Positions 42,292-54,136 of a stretch of DNA of 64,000 nucleotides are shown here, one piece after another. The position numbers and the translations under genes are program-made. Position 1 is the stretch's first letter; every line of letters starts with the position of its first letter. The stretch comes from Bacteroidales bacterium (GTDB lineage: Bacteria; Bacteroidota; Bacteroidia; Bacteroidales; Bacteroidaceae): contig JAQXZK010000012.1 of assembly GCA_029227175.1 (NCBI GenBank), positions 35,090 to 99,089 of the forward strand, in the 5' to 3' direction. The notes beneath the pieces were generated by a model. The model searched no databases and was not told the DNA's origin. It saw nothing but the letters and a program-made list of their open reading frames with translations.

Positions 42292-42471
42292 GCGCAGTTT
42301 TGCTTACTAACCTTGGCTGCACTCGGTAAACTTCAAACAAGTTTGACTCTGCTATCGTTTGCACAAGCTCTCCGAGTAAAGATTGATTAAGCAGATATTT
42401 TTCATTTTAGTTTTTTTGAAGTTTTTACGTCCTGTTCGTTTCTTCTGTTTAATTTTCGGTTTTTGGAAAGT

Positions 42472-42786
42472 TCTACACAATTGAAGTGATACGAAGGAAG
42501 CGGCGATTGTACTTTTACACAATTGAAGTGACACGAAGGAAGCGGCGGAAGTACTTTTACACAATTGAAGTGTTATGAAGGAAGCGGCGATTGTACTTTT
42601 ACACAATTGAAGTGATACGAAGGAAGCGGCGAATGTACTTTTACACAATTGAAGTGACATGAAGGAAGCGGCGAATGTACTTTTACACAATTGAAGTGAT
42701 ACGAAGGAAGCGGCGATTGTACTTTTACACAATTGAAGTGATACGATGGAAGCGGCGAATGTACTTTTACACAGTTGAAGTGATAC
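42472..42786. repeat. Type B minisatellite array, ~7.5 units of 42 bp
   Basis: Unit TTTACACAATTGAAGTGATACGAAGGAAGCGGCGATTGTACT with point variation; open on the minus strand as a 14-aa repeat (LQLCKSTFAASFVS). Confidence 0.93.
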
Positions 42787-42849
42787 TGCTATGCCTTCGA
42801 TGAAGTGGTCGATGGCCTGACACAGATATAGGTAAAACCGGATCAGAAA

Positions 42850-43080
42850 TTCTATTGACCGATTGAGGATAAATGGGTGTTGCCACAACGACTATGCAAC
42901 AAAAGGGTTTAGGAAAAGACCTTTTTAAGAAATAATCACCATCTTTGTACACACAAACCTTGCGCGCCAGACAAGGAATCTTCGCCAGCATGACACGACG
43001 TTCTGTCTACAATTTTTGCCATGTTTTGCATCTTTCCTTGCCGGTGTGTGCTTGAACCATTAAAACAAATACTTATGAAG
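42850..43080 (+). promoter_or_regulatory. Copy 1 of duplicated promoter/5' leader
   Basis: Near-match to 44133-44366, containing CATCTTTG (-7-like) and ~125 nt of leader before ATG 43075. Confidence 0.8.
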
Positions 43081-44132: not shown

Positions 44133-44366
44133 CCTATTGACCGATTTTTGAAAAAAAAGATGCTGCCGCAACGGTCATGCAACAAAAAGGTGTTTTATAA
44201 AGTCCTTTTTTAAGAAATAATCACCATCTTTGTATACACAAACCTTGCACGCCGGACAAGGAATCTTCGCCAGCATGACACGACATTCTCTCTACAATGT
44301 TTGCCATGTATTACATCTTTCATTGCCGGTGTGTGCCTTAACCATTAAAAACAAATACTTATGAAA
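44133..44366 (+). promoter_or_regulatory. Copy 2 of duplicated promoter/5' leader
   Basis: See 42850-43080; precedes ATG 44361. Confidence 0.8.
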
Positions 44367-45905
44367 AAGCTTAGTAAGAAAATCTTGTTGCTTATTGCAT
44401 GTGCGGTAGTTGCCTCTTTGCAATGCCGTGCCGAATCGGAAGAACAAAAGTATGTAACCTATGAAGAGTATGGTGCCAAGGGAGATGGCGTGCATGATGA
44501 CCTTGCAGCTATTGTGGCAGCACATAATGCCGCCAACGAGAAGCACCTGCCTGTCAAAGCTGCCGATGGCAAGACCTACTTCATCGGCAAGGGTTCTGCC
44601 ACTGCGATAATCAAGACCGACGTCGACTTCGGTACGGCCAGATTCATTATCAACGATATCGAGACGGAAAACTACAAAAGCAATATCTTCCGGGTAGAGT
44701 CATACTTGCAGCCGTTTGATGTGCAGGGCGTTCGGAAAATCAAGCGAGGACAACGTAATCTGGGCGTGAAGTTGCCTCATAACTGCCTGATTGAGGTGGT
44801 CGACGACCAGAAGAGAGTATACATCCGTTACGGGTTGAACCAGAACAATGGTACGGCTGCCCAGGAGGTCTTTATAGCTGATAAAGAGGGTAGGGTGAGA
44901 GACAGTGCACCAATCGTATGGGATTATGACCACATCTCTGAAATCAAGGCCTATCCGATGGATGAAGAAACGCTAACCATCAAAGGCGGTATCTTTACCA
45001 CAGTGGCCAATCAGGCTCCTTCCACCTATGCCTATCGCGGACGTGGCATTGTCATCAACCGCTCTAATGTCCGGGTGGAGGGCGTGAAGCATTACGTCAT
45101 TGGCGAACTGGATCATGGTGCACCTTATTCCGGCTTTTTGTCTATGACTTATTGCGCAGACGTAGTCTTGAGCAACTGTCTGTTTACAGGTCATAAGACC
45201 TACGTCACCATCGGTTCTGCCAAGAAACCGGTCAGCATGGGTTCATACGACATCAGTGCGCGTTCGGCAATCAATGTACTGTTTGAACATTGCAGCCAGA
45301 CCACAAGCATTGACGACAGTAAGTACTGGGGCATCTTCGGCTCGAACTTCTGCAAAGACCTGCGCATGGACCATTGTAGTTTCTCTCGTTTCGATGCTCA
45401 TCAGGGTGTGGCCAATGTCACGTTGACAAACTGCAAGTTTGGCTACATGGGTGTGCGCATGGTAGGGTTTGGCACCATACGCATGGAAAACTGTGAGGTG
45501 CGCTACAACACACTGATTGCCTTGCGCGATGATTACGGAAGCTCATGGGACGGCGATATCATCATCAAGAACTGCACCTTGCGCCCTGTGAATCCCAACT
45601 ACCGCTCCTTGACACTGCTTTCAGGAACCAACACTGGCAAGCATGACTTCGGATACACCTGTTCGCTCCCCAAGATGATGCTCATCGAAGGGTTGACCAT
45701 CGACGACACGGCCATAAAGTCACCACAATACCAGAATCCCGCCATCTTCGGTACCTTTAACCGGAAGGCCGATGACAAAGACCTCTTGCCGTTTGTCATC
45801 AAGGGAAAAGTGATTCTGAAGGATGTCAAGGTGACCAGTGGAAAGGAATTTGTGAAGAGTGCCAATCCGGATATATTCAAGAAAATGAAAATTGTCAATC
45901 AGTAA
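44361..45905 (+). CDS. Exported right-handed beta-helix (pectate lyase superfamily-like) protein, paralog 1
   Basis: 514 aa; YVTYEEYGAKGDGVHDDLAAIVAAHNAANEKHLPV motif typical of the pectate-lyase-3 fold. Confidence 0.82.
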   Translation: MKKLSKKILLLIACAVVASLQCRAESEEQKYVTYEEYGAKGDGVHDDLAAIVAAHNAANEKHLPVKAADGKTYFIGKGSATAIIKTDVDFGTARFIINDIETENYKSNIFRVESYLQPFDVQGVRKIKRGQRNLGVKLPHNCLIEVVDDQKRVYIRYGLNQNNGTAAQEVFIADKEGRVRDSAPIVWDYDHISEIKAYPMDEETLTIKGGIFTTVANQAPSTYAYRGRGIVINRSNVRVEGVKHYVIGELDHGAPYSGFLSMTYCADVVLSNCLFTGHKTYVTIGSAKKPVSMGSYDISARSAINVLFEHCSQTTSIDDSKYWGIFGSNFCKDLRMDHCSFSRFDAHQGVANVTLTNCKFGYMGVRMVGFGTIRMENCEVRYNTLIALRDDYGSSWDGDIIIKNCTLRPVNPNYRSLTLLSGTNTGKHDFGYTCSLPKMMLIEGLTIDDTAIKSPQYQNPAIFGTFNRKADDKDLLPFVIKGKVILKDVKVTSGKEFVKSANPDIFKKMKIVNQ

Positions 45906-45923: not shown

Positions 45924-47459
45924 ATGAAAACAAACGCCTTGAGAGGCATCTTCTTGATAGCCTGCGTACTGACTGCTTCATGCCATTTGTGGGCAATGCC
46001 TCAGAAATACATCACATACGAACAGTTTGGTGCCAAGGGAGACGGGGTGCACGACGATTTGGAAGCAATTGCTGCGGCACACCGTGCCGCCAACGAACAG
46101 CATCTTCCGGTCAGGGCTGCTGACGACAAGACTTACCTCATAGGAAAAGGAGCCACTACGGTAGTAATCAAGACCGATGTGGACTTTGGCAAAGCCAAGT
46201 TCATCATCAACGATGTGGAGACGGACAACTATAAGAGCTGGGTGTTCCGGGTCGAGTCATACCTGAAGCCTTACGATGTCGAAGGCGTGACGAGCCTGAA
46301 ACGTGGGCAGCAGAATATCGGGGTGAAATTTCCACAAAACAGTCTGATAGAGGTCATCAACGACCGGAAAAAGGTCTACATCCGCTACGGACTTAACCAA
46401 AACAGTGGAACTCCCGCCCGTGAGGTGTTCGTCGTCGACAAGAAGGGCAATGTCAGGGACAAGTCACAGATTGTATGGGATTATGATCACATCTCCCAAA
46501 TCAAAGCTTACCCGATGGACAAGGAAACACTGACCATCATGGGCGGTATTTTTACCACAGTGGCCAATCAGGCTCCTTCCACTTACGCATATCGCTCAAG
46601 GGGATTTATCATCAACCGCTCCAATGTGCGGGTGGAGGGTGTTACCCATTACGTCACCGGAGAATTAGACCATGGCGCACCTTATCGCGGATTCCTTTAT
46701 GTAGACCATTGTGCGGATGTGGTCCTGAGCAACTGCCTGTTTACGGCCCATAAGACTTATGTCACCATCGGTTCCGCCAAGAAGCCCGTCAGCATGGGCT
46801 CATACGACACAGGTGCCATGTCGGCCGTGAACGTGCTGTTCGAACATTGCCGGCAGACGACAGATATCGACGACAACAAATACTGGGGACTCTATGCCTC
46901 CAACTTCTGCAAAGACCTGCGCATGGACGACTGTCACTTCTCCCGTTTCGATGCTCACATGGGTGTGGCTAACGTCACATTGACAAACTGTAAGTTTGGC
47001 TATATGGGGGTGCGCATGGTAGGGTTTGGCACTATACGCATGGAAAACTGTGAGGTGCGCTACAACACACTGATTGCCTTGCGCGATGATTACGGAAGCT
47101 CATGGGACGGTGATATCATCATCAAGAACTGCACCTTGCGTCCCGTGAATCCCAACTACCGCTCCTTGACTATACTCTCGGGCACAAACACCGGCAAGCA
47201 TGATTTCGGCTATCTCTGCCGCTTGCCCTATAAGATGGTTATTGACGGATTGACCGTTGACGATAGTGCGCTCAATCCGGACAAATACGAACACCTGGCC
47301 ATCTTTGCCACCTTCAACCGTGATGCACACGACACCGGTCTGCTTCCTTTCCCGATAGAGGGACAGGTTATCTTGAAAAACGTCAAGGTGCAGAGTGGCA
47401 GAGAGTGTATTGTCAGTGCCAATCCGGATTTGTATAGGAATGTAGAGGTTATCCGCTAA
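45924..47459 (+). CDS. Exported right-handed beta-helix protein, paralog 2
   Basis: 511 aa, strongly similar along the full length to the preceding ORF. Confidence 0.82.
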   Translation: MKTNALRGIFLIACVLTASCHLWAMPQKYITYEQFGAKGDGVHDDLEAIAAAHRAANEQHLPVRAADDKTYLIGKGATTVVIKTDVDFGKAKFIINDVETDNYKSWVFRVESYLKPYDVEGVTSLKRGQQNIGVKFPQNSLIEVINDRKKVYIRYGLNQNSGTPAREVFVVDKKGNVRDKSQIVWDYDHISQIKAYPMDKETLTIMGGIFTTVANQAPSTYAYRSRGFIINRSNVRVEGVTHYVTGELDHGAPYRGFLYVDHCADVVLSNCLFTAHKTYVTIGSAKKPVSMGSYDTGAMSAVNVLFEHCRQTTDIDDNKYWGLYASNFCKDLRMDDCHFSRFDAHMGVANVTLTNCKFGYMGVRMVGFGTIRMENCEVRYNTLIALRDDYGSSWDGDIIIKNCTLRPVNPNYRSLTILSGTNTGKHDFGYLCRLPYKMVIDGLTVDDSALNPDKYEHLAIFATFNRDAHDTGLLPFPIEGQVILKNVKVQSGRECIVSANPDLYRNVEVIR

Positions 47460-47508
47460 CCAGACTTGTAAATAAAGTCCGGAGTTTATGTAAAAATAAA
47501 TGCGAATA

Positions 47509-47540
47509 TTTGTGTTTTTGTAGAAGAAGATATAAATTTG
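47509..47540 (+). promoter_or_regulatory. leu operon promoter
   Basis: TTTG (47509-47512) - 20 bp - TAAATTTG (47533-47540), the Bacteroidetes -33/-7 pattern. Confidence 0.75.
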
Positions 47541-47559
47541 CGACCGTTTTAATAGCAAA

Positions 47560-47622
47560 ATGATGAACATTCAACTACATATTGGTCTACTGATTCTTCG
47601 ATTGCATGCTGTAATTGGATAG
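47560..47622 (+). CDS. Putative leu leader peptide (attenuator)
   Basis: ATGATGAAC...GGATAG encodes MMNIQLHIGLLILRLHAVIG*: 5 Leu, 4 Ile, 1 Val in 20 residues, immediately downstream of the promoter. Confidence 0.75.
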   Translation: MMNIQLHIGLLILRLHAVIG

Positions 47623-47685
47623 TGAGTGGTATACATATGTATGATATACAAGATACAAATAAATTGAAAGCCTTTCTCACTATCC
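47617..47685 (+). promoter_or_regulatory. Predicted antiterminator pairing of the leu attenuator
   Basis: GGATAGTGAG (47617-47626) is perfectly complementary to CTCACTATCC (47676-47685) in the terminator. Confidence 0.7.
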
Positions 47686-47707
47686 TGTGTGAAAGGCTTT
47701 TGATTTT
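47667..47707 (+). terminator. Intrinsic terminator of the leu attenuator
   Basis: AAAGCCTTTC - 14 nt - GAAAGGCTTT TGATTTT, upstream of leuA ATG 47734. Confidence 0.82.
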
Positions 47708-47733
47708 AATTGACAATTCAAACAAATAGATAA

Positions 47734-49233
47734 ATGAGCGACAGACTTTTTATTTTCGACACGACGTTGCGCGATGGCGAACAGGTGCCTGGTTGCCAGT
47801 TGAACACCATCGAGAAGATTCAAGTGGCCAGGCAGTTGGAAATGCTGGGTGTAGATGTCATTGAGGCTGGTTTCCCGATCTCCAGCCCGGGTGATTTTAA
47901 TTCTGTAATAGAGATTTCAAAGGCAGTGACATGGCCCACGATATGTGCCTTGACACGTGCGGTGGAGAAGGATATCAATGTGGCTGTAGACGCATTGCAA
48001 TATGCCAAACATAAGCGTATTCATACCGGTATCGGAACATCCGATTCGCATATCAAGTATAAGTTCAACTCTACCCGTGAGGAAATTATAGAACGTGCCG
48101 TTGCTGCGGTGAAGTATGCCAAGCGCTTTGTGGAAGACGTAGAGTTTTATGCGGAGGATGCAGGCCGTACGGACAACGAATACCTGGCTCGCGTAGTGGA
48201 TGCTGTTGTGAAGGCCGGTGCTACGGTTGTAAATATCCCTGACACGACCGGTTTCAGACTCCCGATGGAGTATGGCGAGAAAATCAAGTACCTGATGGAA
48301 CATGTAGACGGATTGAGTGCCGGTAAGGCCATTCTCTCAACCCATTGCCACAACGATCTGGGTATGGCTACCGCAAATACCTTGTCAGGTGTCATCAATG
48401 GCGCCCGTCAGGTAGAGGTGACTATCAACGGCATTGGCGAACGTGCCGGTAACACTTCGTTAGAAGAGGTGGTCATGGCCTTGAAAACCCATCCGTACTT
48501 GGACATTGACACGAATATCAACACAACGAAGATTTATCCGACGAGCCGTATGGTTTCATCGTTGATGAATATGCCTGTCCAACCCAACAAAGCCATAGTG
48601 GGTAAGAATGCCTTTGCCCATTCTTCCGGTATCCATCAGGACGGTGTGCTGAAGAATGTCGGGACATACGAGATTATGGACCCCAAGGAGGTCGGTATTG
48701 ATGATAATAGTATCGTATTGACCGCCCGGAGCGGACGAGCAGCCCTGAAGCATCGTCTGCACGTGAACGGCGTAGATATCGACGGTGAGAAACTGGACAA
48801 AGTATATGAGGAATTCCTCGCATTAGCCGACAAAAAGAAAGAAGTTACGGATGACGATGTGCTGGTACTTGCCGGTGCCAATAGGGCTGAAACACATAGC
48901 GTGAAGCTTGATTATCTGCAGGTGACTACAGGCAAGGGTGTTCGTTCGGTAGCAAGTATCGGTCTTGCCATTGCCAACGAGCATTTCGAAGCCGCAGCAT
49001 CAGGTAATGGTCCGGTCGATGCTGCCATCAAGGCTCTGAAAACAATCATCAAGCGTGAGATGACTTTGAAGGAGTTTACCATTCAGGCCATCAGCAAGGG
49101 TTCGGACGATATGGGTAAGGTACACATGCAGGTTGAGTATAACGGTAGTGTGTATTATGGCTTTGGTGCCAATACCGATATTGTCACGGCTTCTGTCGAG
49201 GCATATATTGATTGTATCAACAAATTCAGATGA
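47734..49233 (+). CDS. leuA: 2-isopropylmalate synthase
   Basis: 499 aa; [50 protein letters not shown]. Confidence 0.94.
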
Positions 49234-49263: not shown

Positions 49264-50727
49264 ATGGGTACATATAATAATGTATGCACTACGGGTGCAG
49301 GTCCTCTCTCGGCAGGAGAGATGTCTGAGGGGCAGAAGGGGTTATCCCTGTTTGACAAGATATGGAATTCCCATGTTGTGCAGGTCGTTAAGGACGGACC
49401 TACACAGTTGTATATAGATCGTTTGTATTGCCACGAGGTGACATCGCCGCAGGCATTTGACACATTGCGCGACAAGGGCATAAAAGTGTTCCGTCCGGAC
49501 CATGTATACGCAATGCCCGATCATAACCCCCCTTCGGACCAGCAGGAGGTGATAAACGACCCGGTGGGGCGTAATCAGGTAGACACTCTGGCCAGGAACT
49601 GTGCAGAGTTCGGCATCAAGCACTTTGCAATGGGAACAAAGGACAATGGAATCATCCATGTGGTAGGTCCGGAAAAGGGTTTGTCACTGCCGGGTATGAC
49701 CATTGTGTGTGGCGACTCTCATACCTCAACGCATGGCGCCGTAGGAGCATTGGCGATGGGTATCGGTACCAGTGAGGTGGCCGAAGTGCTGGCAAGTCAG
49801 TGTATCTTGCAGCAGAAGCCGAAGTCTATGCGTATCAACGTAGAGGGCAAGTTGCAACCGGGTGTGACCGCAAAGGACATTGCCCTGTACATTATGGCTC
49901 AGCTGACAACAAGCGGTGCAACAGGATATGCCGTGGAATATGCCGGTTCGACAATTCGCGACCTCTCCATGGAGGGACGTCTGACGCTCTCAAACCTCTC
50001 TATTGAAATGGGAAGCCGTGCTGGTATCATTGCACCTGACGAAAAAACCTTTGAATACCTGAAGGGAAGAGAATATGCCCCGAAGGGTGAGGACTGGGAT
50101 AAGGCTGTTGCCTATTGGAAGACCTTGAAGAGTGATGAGGACGTAGTGTTTGACAAGGAAGTGACTTTCCGAGCTGAGGATATTGCTCCGCGTATTACTT
50201 ATGGAACCAATCCGGGTGCCGGTATTGCGGTTGACGGAACCATCCCTACGCTGGAGAGTATTCCGGAAGAACAGCAGAGCGGATTCCTTGCCCAGTTGAA
50301 GTATATGCAGTTCAATCCCGGAGAGAAACTGGAAGGACATCCGGTGGATTATGTTTTCCTGGGTGCATGTACCAATGGCCGTATTGAGGACTTCCGTGCC
50401 TTTGCCGGCGTGGTAAAGGGAAAGAAGAAGGCTGCGAACGTGGTGGCTTGGTTGGTTCCCGGTAGTTGGAAGGTGCGTCAGCAGATTGTTGATGAGGGCA
50501 TAGACAAGATACTTGAAGAAGCAGGATTTGAACTTCGACTTCCTTCATGCTCCTCATGTCTGGCCATGAATCCGGATAAGGTTCCGGCAGGCAAGTTGTC
50601 TATTTCTACAAGTAACCGCAACTTCGTGGGGCGTCAGGGACCAGGTGCACGCACTGTGTTGTGCTCTCCTCTGACAGCTGCTGCAAGTGCCATTACAGGT
50701 GTAATTACTGACCCAAGAAAAATCTAA
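49264..50727 (+). CDS. leuC: 3-isopropylmalate dehydratase large subunit
   Basis: 487 aa; [57 protein letters not shown]. Confidence 0.95.
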
Positions 50728-50731
50728 GAAG

Positions 50732-51343
50732 ATGAAAGCTAAATTCAATATCATTCAATCTACATGTATACCGATTGTCATTGACAACTGTAATACAGAC
50801 CTTATTATTCCTGCACGTTATCTGGCTTCAACCACGCGTGACCCGAAGTTTTTTGGAGACGCTTTCATGCACGACTTGCGCTATGATGCAGATGGTAAAC
50901 CGGTTGCCGACTTTGTGCTGAATCGTCCTGATTATTCAGAATTGCCACGTGAGGGTGTGCACGAGATTATTGTAGCCGGACAGAACTGGGGCTCGGGAAG
51001 TTCTCGCGAGCACGCAGCCTGGGCAATCGCCGGTTATGGAGTCAGAGTTGTCGTGTCTTCCTCATTTGCCGATATTCATAAGAATAATCTGTACAACTGC
51101 TTTGTCTTGCCTGTTGTTGTCAGCAAGGCTTTCCAGGAGGAGTTGTTTGCAAGCATAGCTGCTAATCCCAAGATGGAGGTGAAGGTAGACCTTCCCAACC
51201 AGACAATAACGAATATGGCTACCGGCCACTCGGAGTCATTCGACATCAACGGCTATAAGAAGTATTGCCTGATGAACGCCTTGGACGACATTGACTTCCT
51301 GTTGGAAAACAAGGAGAAGATAGAAGCATACGAAAACAAGTAA
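50732..51343 (+). CDS. leuD: 3-isopropylmalate dehydratase small subunit
   Basis: 203 aa; DLIIPARYLASTTRDPKFFGD, NWGSGSSREHAAWAIAGYGVRVVVSSSFADI. Confidence 0.95.
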   Translation: MKAKFNIIQSTCIPIVIDNCNTDLIIPARYLASTTRDPKFFGDAFMHDLRYDADGKPVADFVLNRPDYSELPREGVHEIIVAGQNWGSGSSREHAAWAIAGYGVRVVVSSSFADIHKNNLYNCFVLPVVVSKAFQEELFASIAANPKMEVKVDLPNQTITNMATGHSESFDINGYKKYCLMNALDDIDFLLENKEKIEAYENK

Positions 51344-52906
51344 ATGTATCAGTCAAGAGAAATATTCCGGCAGGCACAAGTCCATGTAGAGATTATGGAC
51401 ACGACCTTGCGCGATGGCGAACAGACCAGCGGCGTGTCGTTTCTACCCTACGAAAAACTTGTGATAGCCAAGGCTCTGTTGGAAGACTTGAGGGTGGATC
51501 GCATCGAGATTGCTTCGGCACGTGTATCCGATGGAGAATTGGAGGCAGCCAAAGGAATCTGCAGATGGGCTCGGCGCAAGGGACACATAGACAAGGTTGA
51601 GATTCTGGGATTTGTCGACGACGGCAAGTCGCTGGACTGGATTGCCGAAGCCGGTGGACATGTGGTCAATCTGTTGGCCAAGGGTTCTTACAGGCATTGT
51701 GTCTGTCAGCTGAAGAAGACTCCGGACGAACATATCTCAGACATCCTGCGCAATGTACAGATGGCCCAGGATAGGGGATTTGACGTGAATGTTTATCTGG
51801 AAGACTGGAGCAACGGCATGAAGTCTTCTCCGGATTACGTATTCAGTCTGGTTGACGCCATGAAGGATGCGGGCATCAAGCGCTTTATGCTTCCCGACAC
51901 ACTGGGTGTGTTGAATCCGATGCTTGTTATTGACTACTTCAGGAAGATGAAGAGCCGTTACGAGAGTCTGCATTTTGACTTTCATGCACATAACGACTAC
52001 GACTTGGCGGTGAGCAATGTCTTGGCTGCCGTGTGGAGTGGTGCAAAGGGCTTGCATACGTCTATTAACGGTTTGGGCGAGCGTGCCGGCAATGCTCCGC
52101 TTGCCAGTGTGCAGGCTATCCTGAGGGATCATTTCGATGCAGTGACAGGCATTGACGAAGGAAAGCTCAATGAGGTGAGTCATCTGGTCGAGAGTTATTC
52201 GGGCATAGCCATTCCGCCCAATAAGCCTATTGTCGGCAGTAGCGTCTTTACGCAGGTAGCCGGTGTGCATGCAGATGGTGACAACAAGAACAATCTCTAC
52301 TGCAACGACTTGCTGCCTGAACGGTTCGGACGCAAGCGGGAATATGCTTTGGGAAAGGCCAGTGGCAAGGCTAACATTCGAAAGAATCTGGAGGAACTTG
52401 GACTCGAACTGAGCGAGGAAGCCATGAAGAAGGTGACACAGCGCATCATCGAGTTGGGTGACAAGAAGGAGCTCGTTACACAGGAGGACTTGCCTTATAT
52501 CGTGAGTGATGTGCTGAAGCATACGACGGTAGAAGAGAAGGTGGTGCTCAAAAGCTACATGGTGTCTACATCGTACGGCTTGAAGCCTTTGGCCGGTGCC
52601 AAGTTGGAGGTGAATGGTGTACTGTACGAAGAGAATGCGACGGGTGACGGACAGTTCGATGCTTTCGTACGCTGCATCCGCCATATCTACAAGGACAAAT
52701 TGCAACGTCAGTTCCCCTGGCTGTTGAATTATAACGTGACGATTCCTCCGGGTGGACGTACAGACGCCTTGGTGCAGACGACCATTGAGTGGGAGTTTGA
52801 AGGCAGAATCTATCGTACGCATGCCTTGGATGCTGATCAGACTGAGGCTGCCATCAAGGCCACTATCAAGATGCTGAACATGATTGAGCCCCTGTTTGAG
52901 GCTTGA
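51344..52906 (+). CDS. Isopropylmalate/citramalate synthase family paralog with C-terminal regulatory domain
   Basis: 520 aa; [50 protein letters not shown]. Confidence 0.87.
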   Translation: MYQSREIFRQAQVHVEIMDTTLRDGEQTSGVSFLPYEKLVIAKALLEDLRVDRIEIASARVSDGELEAAKGICRWARRKGHIDKVEILGFVDDGKSLDWIAEAGGHVVNLLAKGSYRHCVCQLKKTPDEHISDILRNVQMAQDRGFDVNVYLEDWSNGMKSSPDYVFSLVDAMKDAGIKRFMLPDTLGVLNPMLVIDYFRKMKSRYESLHFDFHAHNDYDLAVSNVLAAVWSGAKGLHTSINGLGERAGNAPLASVQAILRDHFDAVTGIDEGKLNEVSHLVESYSGIAIPPNKPIVGSSVFTQVAGVHADGDNKNNLYCNDLLPERFGRKREYALGKASGKANIRKNLEELGLELSEEAMKKVTQRIIELGDKKELVTQEDLPYIVSDVLKHTTVEEKVVLKSYMVSTSYGLKPLAGAKLEVNGVLYEENATGDGQFDAFVRCIRHIYKDKLQRQFPWLLNYNVTIPPGGRTDALVQTTIEWEFEGRIYRTHALDADQTEAAIKATIKMLNMIEPLFEA

Positions 52907-53041: not shown

Positions 53042-54136
53042 ATGGGTGAAGATGTTATGAAATTAAAAATTGCAGTTCTGGCCGGTGATGGTATCGGTCC
53101 TGAGATTATGGAGCAAGGCGTGGCAGTGATGAGCGCTGTTGCTGAGAAATTCGGACATGACGTAAGTTATCAGGAAGCTCTTTGTGGCGCACATGCCATT
53201 GACGAGGTGGGTGACCCGTTCCCGGAAGAGACATTCCGTGTATGCGAGGATGCTGATGCTGTATTATTTGCCAGTGTCGGTGATCCGAAATTTGACAATA
53301 ACCCTACGGCTAAGGTCAGACCGGAGCAAGGTCTTCTGGCTATGCGTAAGAAACTGGGACTTTATGCCAACATCCGTCCGGTTACGACGTTCGATTGCCT
53401 GATTCACAAGTCTCCGTTGAAGGACGAGATTGTGAAGGGGGCAGACTTTATCTGTATCCGTGAATTGACGGGTGGCATGTATTTTGGTAAGAAACAGGAG
53501 CCGTCAATCAATGCTGAAGGCGTGGAGGAAGCTCTGGATACTAACTACTATACACGTCCGGAGGTGGAGCGCATCTTGAAGGTCGGTTATCAGTATGCCC
53601 GTCAGCGTCGCAAGCACCTGACGGTTGTAGACAAGGCCAACGTGCTTGCTTCAAGCCGCTTGTGGAGAAAGATTGCCCAGGAGATGGCTCCTCAATATCC
53701 TGATGTGGTAACTGATTTCATGTATGTGGACAACGCTGCCATGCGCATGATTCAGGAGCCTACATTCTTTGATGTTATGGTGACAGAGAATACTTTTGGT
53801 GATATCCTGACGGACGAGGGATCTGTCATTACTGGCTCAATGGGCCTTCTGCCTTCTGCTTCAACGGGTTCAAGTACGCCTGTATTCGAACCGATTCATG
53901 GCTCATGGCCTCAGGGCAAGGGACTGAATATTGCCAATCCGCTGGCTCAGATTCTCTCGGTTGCCATGTTGTACGAATACTTCGACCTGAAGGAAGAAGG
54001 CGCTTTGATACGCGAAGCCGTAAATGCTTCATTGGACGCCAATGTACGCACACCTGAAATTCAGGTAGCAGGTGCTGCTAAGTATGGTACCAAGGAGGTT
54101 GGTGCCTGGATTGTCGATTATATCAAGAATAAGTAA
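53042..54136 (+). CDS. leuB: 3-isopropylmalate dehydrogenase (alternative start ATG 53057)
   Basis: [54 protein letters not shown]. Confidence 0.94.

Follow-up and report, generated by a model that had tools for sequence, protein, structure and literature searches.

The region directly upstream of leuA in the window (the whole 64,000-nt stretch of Bacteroidaceae DNA analyzed here) very likely encodes a ribosome-mediated transcription attenuator that responds to charged tRNA-Leu, probably along with tRNA-Ile, and controls leuA-leuC-leuD-cimA-like-leuB. With such a device, the leu genes would very probably be on only when leucine is short, via stalling of a ribosome on the leader. The preliminary description of this DNA had read the leuA upstream region as an attenuator, and comparison with relatives supports this reading well: the layout recurs at 74 of 109 leuA loci, the leader peptide is under coding selection (pN/pS 0.03) and antiterminator strands fit the terminator arms of their own loci better than those of others (z = -9). 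From sequence, we infer all four of leader translation, ribosome stalling, termination at this site and the response to leucine.

Architecture of the leuA leader and operon

The elements of the locus are listed below; all peptides given in this text, except where parts of a leader are compared, end at a stop codon.

47509..47540, + strand: Bacteroidota-type promoter, identified from sequence, with -33 TTTG at 47509-47512, N20, and -7 TAAATTTG at 47533-47540
47560..47622, + strand: leader peptide ORF MMNIQLHIGLLILRLHAVIG with Leu/Ile control codons, conserved in relatives
47617..47626, + strand: strand 2, the antiterminator 5' strand GGATAGTGAG, holding the leader stop TAG (47620-47622); canonical form in relatives GGAAGTGAG
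47627..47666, + strand: A+T-rich linker, including the palindrome ATACATATGTAT at 47631-47642
47667..47707, + strand: intrinsic terminator, stem GCCTTTCTCAC (47670-47680) / GTGTGAAAGGC (47687-47697) with outer AAA/TTT pairs
47676..47685, + strand: strand 3, the antiterminator 3' strand CTCACTATCC in the terminator 5' arm and loop, co-varying with strand 2
47734..49233, + strand: leuA, 2-isopropylmalate synthase, first gene of the operon (NF002086, 733.9 bits, cut-off 532)
49264..50727, + strand: leuC, 3-isopropylmalate dehydratase large subunit (TIGR00170, 612.8 bits, cut-off 560)
50732..51343, + strand: leuD, 3-isopropylmalate dehydratase small subunit (TIGR00171, 147.4 bits, cut-off 116)
51344..52906, + strand: LeuA-like protein, best match the (R)-citramalate synthase model NF042433 (620.5 bits, below the cut-off of 950)
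53042..54136, + strand: leuB, 3-isopropylmalate dehydrogenase (TIGR00169, 437.3 bits, cut-off 353), 135 nt after the preceding gene

The TTTG-N20-TAAATTTG promoter and the 20-aa leader ORF reported in the preliminary description are both borne out by the sequence. The 20 codons include 5 Leu, 4 Ile and 1 Val (10 of 20 residues), and the Leu codon that is invariant among relatives is located at 47602-47604. A TAnnTTTG element precedes the leader ATG in 46 of 48 distinct relatives, mostly at a distance of 19-31 nt. Further upstream, positions 44361-45905 and 45924-47459 encode adjacent, very similar secreted-looking proteins that likely arose by tandem duplication; the model scan covered the second of the pair and found no NCBIfam match for it. 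On the - strand, an ORF at 42352-42888 carries a repeated SLQLCKSTxAASF, the product of a short tandem DNA repeat.

Distribution of the leader among relatives

Loci of leuA were collected from contigs of the genus and of named genomes, mostly Bacteroides, Phocaeicola, Prevotella and uncultured Bacteroidaceae, and the 109 loci with at least 100 nt of upstream sequence were counted. The complete order of TAnnTTTG promoter, short leader ORF, strand 2 at the ORF end, terminator and leuA was found at 74 of them, 68 by a script detecting a terminator plus a complementary upstream strand and six (L050, L056, L062, L098, L099, L106) by eye; leader and pairing are thus kept in relatives. Among the 35 loci without a leader, 29 have TAnnTTTG within 100 nt of leuA; the cassette is thus either there in full between promoter and gene or missing altogether. 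R1, a covariance model built on the leuA leader, places a site 5' of leuA in most genomes of the genus. No leader directly before leuA was recognized at 40 distant leuA loci outside the family, and in distant genomes R1 found only ilv-associated sites, in two genomes. One R1 match (L127), with neither a leader ORF nor an adjacent biosynthetic gene, was treated as a chance hit.

Antiterminator pairing and co-variation

According to the preliminary description, a 10-mer that holds the leader TAG is perfectly complementary to the terminator 5' arm and loop, and strands 2 and 3 indeed have this relationship at 47617-47626 and 47676-47685. A+T-rich DNA abounds in short ORFs, and brief stretches of complementarity arise randomly, so that a hydrophobic short ORF and complementary 10-mers could lie near leuA by coincidence. 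This is next to inconceivable, as it is refuted by the 74 of 109 loci with matched changes and by the finding that, when the upstream strand was shuffled, just 8 of 2000 sequences paired equally well with the terminator arm. The two strands differ between clades yet remain complementary, as in the pairs GGAAGTGAG/CTCACTTCC, TGAAGTGAG/CTCACTTCA, GTGAGAAAGGT/ACCTTTCTCAC, GCTCGGAGTGAGAGAGGC/GCCTTTCTTGCTCCGAGC and GAAATGGG/CCCATTTC. In a swap test, in which each upstream region was tried against the terminator arms of all other loci at equal search freedom, the arm of its own locus was better than the swapped partners, with z = -9, a value to be taken as a measure rather than a probability because related sequences are not independent. 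Co-variation of the pairing, which had been named as a check on the attenuator, is accordingly evident across clades.

Relative to the canonical pair GGAAGTGAG/CTCACTTCC, the window has one T inserted in strand 2 and a matching A in strand 3, such that GGATAGTGAG/CTCACTATCC amounts to one matched base pair gained; this natural matched insertion is evidence for the strand 2/3 pairing. The exact pair occurs in 0 of 300 other family genomes searched. The inserted T converts GGA AGT GAG to GGA TAG, and the window leader therefore ends five codons before a leader of the GSECCA type. In most relatives the leader stop lies ~15-20 nt further downstream than that of the window, so that the window genome has acquired its stop within the antiterminator strand secondarily. 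A TGA stop in strand 2 has arisen independently in two relatives, L007 and L015, in the latter with a matching change in the terminator.

Coding selection and control codons of the leader

When 48 distinct leaders were aligned on the antiterminator strand, with codons numbered back from GGA, a common pattern emerged. Bacteroides leaders end in ILLCGIIILLAKVS-GSECCA and Prevotella leaders in NLLNAIIIIRLRQVV-GSDRACL, each followed by the stop codon. Leu occupies position -5, the fifth codon before GGA, in 47 of the 48 leaders and is encoded by CTG, CTA, CTT or TTG; Ile is found at -7 in 46, at -8 in 42 and at -9 in 38. Among 27 Bacteroides-type leaders, pN/pS is 0.03 for codons -14 to -5, which indicates selection on the coding sequence. 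The ORF and its Leu codons, whose conservation was likewise proposed as a check at the outset, are thus kept in relatives. Leu -5 is 12 nt from strand 2, placing the control codons at stalling distance before this strand; given the usual ribosome footprint, Leu -5 is about the last stall codon that leaves strand 2 free.

The same data bear on the idea that the terminated leader acts mainly as a small RNA, or serves to lower operon expression by constant partial termination, with no sensor function. Promoter and terminator do bound a short transcript of roughly 160 nt, and leuA is kept in the 35 relatives without the leader, but the idea leaves unexplained the pN/pS of 0.03, the invariant Leu with its synonymous changes and the joint changes of strand 2 and the terminator arm, and we consider it very unlikely.

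Terminator and linker

An intrinsic terminator had been assigned before leuA, and one is present at 47667-47707, although with an interrupted T tract. Its arms are AAAGCCTTTC (47667-47676) and GAAAGGCTTT (47691-47700), with GCCTTTC/GAAAGGC followed by TTTTGATTTT at 47698-47707; there are 10 pairs, one T-T mismatch in the upper stem and 8 T in 10 nt. Owing to the interrupted T tract and the mismatch, a simple terminator scan makes no call here. The window terminator is weaker than those of relatives, which mostly have 5-8 consecutive T, while position and form are conserved.

The 12-bp palindrome ATACATATGTAT between the two arms, also part of the preliminary description, is real but unconserved in relatives. 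As a functional hairpin it was rejected, since 49 linkers of relatives contain no excess of structure over shuffled sequence (mean z 0.10), and we regard it as incidental on these comparative grounds. The linker also matters for the question of whether a metabolite-binding riboswitch or a T-box type tRNA-binding RNA, instead of a translated leader, might operate here. Such RNAs likewise use terminator/antiterminator pairs before amino acid operons. However, at this locus the linker is without conserved structure and the conserved part is coding sequence. Moreover, Rfam returned no leader family, Bacteroid-trp, T-box or riboswitch match in the window at gathering score, and for 47400-47800 none of the leader, T-box or riboswitch families even at E values as high as 10, the best matches (NrrF, RsaJ) being far below their gathering scores. 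All this renders a riboswitch or T-box extremely unlikely.

Predicted mechanism of the switch

Folding of the window RNA is consistent with a translated leader acting as a switch. The antiterminator and terminator folds are mutually exclusive, the antiterminator spanning only the upper part of the terminator and its loop and leaving GCCTTT free. Before strand 4 exists, the antiterminator forms with a probability of 0.97-1.0 (outermost pair 0.93); masking of strand 2, as by a ribosome that has reached the stop codon, brings the terminator probability close to 1. For a complete hairpin with the ribosome held at Leu -5, the values are 0.55 for the antiterminator and 0.45 for the terminator. As the two folds are nearly balanced at equilibrium when strand 2 is free, the switch must rely on the order of synthesis. 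Without translation the terminator is predicted to win, because strand 2 pairs with upstream RNA in the window fold.

The attenuator would then work as follows. Transcription would start a few nucleotides past 47540, and the leader ORF would be translated while emerging from RNA polymerase. If Leu-tRNA is plentiful, the ribosome would reach the stop codon in strand 2 and cover this strand, strands 3 and 4 would form the terminator, and RNA polymerase would stop near 47705. Under a shortage of Leu-tRNA, the ribosome would instead stall on the Leu codons up to 47604, no closer than 12 nt to strand 2, and GGATAGTGAG could pair with CTCACTATCC before strand 4 is made, allowing transcription to enter leuA.

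Leucine and isoleucine as probable signals

Since leaders hold Ile and Leu codons family-wide (ILLCGIIILL / IIIIRL), the leader probably senses Ile as well as Leu, with Leu being the invariant one. It is conceivable, albeit the lesser expectation, that isoleucine is the main signal, or carries the same weight as leucine, instead of leucine being the only one. An Ile-rich block (ATT ATT ATT) precedes the invariant Leu in relatives, and the citramalate-synthase-like gene in the operon would feed isoleucine synthesis, a possible tie of the leu operon to isoleucine. On the other hand, Leu -5 is the most conserved residue and sits at about the last position where stalling would leave strand 2 free, the window leader has Leu in place of Ile at -7 and -9, the window genome also encodes a threonine deaminase, and the citramalate assignment stays below the model cut-off.

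Leaders of other amino acid operons

A related leader is located 5' of ilvD-ilvB in many genomes of the genus (found with R1; L122-L141 except L127). It shares the promoter type of the leuA leader, has a leader ORF and carries CCTTTCTCA in the terminator. The leader peptides, for example INLAVLHIIRVVVVASRA and MNLHTSINLAVLHIIRVVVVASRA, contain Val/Ile/Leu codons, and codon content thus follows the operon. Strand 2 of the ilvD leader, GTGAGAAAGG, holds the stop TGA, pairs with CCTTTCTCA of the terminator and resembles strand 4; in this leader, strand 2 regularly contains a stop codon. No Rfam match was obtained for the two ilvD leaders scanned (L122, L131). A model of the ilvD leader, R2, has matches in nearly all genomes of the genus. 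In the window genome, R2 finds no leader before ilvD (L187), and the promoter is directly 5' of the gene. Leader-like sites also occur in two distant genomes of the phylum (L142, L143), with MLNNLLLINVILLVLISKPR before ilvD and the Ile-rich leader MYKTNSHIIISIIIIVIIGIIDG before an aminotransferase-like gene that is followed by ilvD.

Further leaders were seen at other biosynthetic operons. The window genome encodes the His-rich leader MIVRNSHHRHHHPND before hisG (L209, contig C67), and the hisG leaders as a group (L202-L210) combine His-rich peptides (MIVRNSHHRHHHPND, MKYTLAHHHHHHPDE) with a terminator-like hairpin. It also has a Bacteroid-trp RNA (RF01692) at C158:3063-3214 (L196; 55.1 bits, gathering score 49), whose leader MMQYMMVNTHWWRLLQLPKS contains two Trp codons and lies 5' of trp genes.

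We consider it reasonably likely that Bacteroidaceae control the majority of their amino acid operons (leu, ilv, his, trp and probably thr) by leader-peptide attenuators of their own that follow one plan, the leu and ilv leaders being related, with codons (Leu/Ile versus Val/Ile/Leu) that fit the operon, and having come and gone as whole units between promoter and first gene.

As a separate observation, a Thr-containing leader-like ORF, such as MMKYYPHTVTSMCTMTLRG, precedes an aspartokinase (thrA-like) gene in several other members of the genus (L212-L216, L220) and is absent in the window genome.

Comparison with known systems

We found no paper on a leu or ilv leader of this kind; a comparative attenuation study of 2010 (doi 10.1134/S0026893310010164, cited in PMC4833913) might already predict it. 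Reports on the Bacteroides thetaiotaomicron transcriptome (PMC7366714) and on Flavobacterium psychrophilum (PMC9723704) mention in passing sORFs or structures suggestive of attenuation, and a leu leader is not described in their main texts. For Bacteroides and Prevotella, which are prominent in gut and rumen communities, little has been written on how amino acid synthesis is controlled. The leuA leader offers a specific, testable switch for leucine and isoleucine synthesis in many species, one that is missing from Rfam.

Leader-peptide attenuation is classical in enterobacteria, where leuL of E. coli and Salmonella encodes a Leu-rich leader with antiterminator/terminator alternatives directly before leuA. 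The window leader shares with leuL the Leu-rich peptide, the alternative folds and the place directly 5' of leuA. It differs in its Bacteroidota promoter, the mixture of Ile and Leu codons, the lack of a four-Leu run and of an Rfam leader match, and in an antiterminator that reaches over the loop and the upper half of the terminator. Attenuator-type leaders on branched-chain operons of other phyla are the leucine-rich attenuator of Staphylococcus aureus ilv-leu (PMC5794164) and the uORF of Corynebacterium ilvBNC (PMC10272879); both are reported to be leader ORFs controlling their operons, which differ from the one here, and the likeness is one of description only. Closer at hand, the ilvD leader of Bacteroidaceae is related to the leuA leader through R1, with other peptide codons and another strand 2. 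Bacteroid-trp (RF01692), named as a cis-regulatory motif of Bacteroidetes (PMC2864571), belongs to the same phylum and follows the same plan, the members examined having a leader with Trp codons, MRTMLVNTYWWWHPLQLRQS, between a TTTG promoter and a terminator upstream of trp genes, whereas its codons and genes are those of Trp and its sequence does not match the leu leader. The leuA leader is a conserved, uncatalogued member of the classical kind of switch, and Bacteroid-trp represents the same kind within the phylum.
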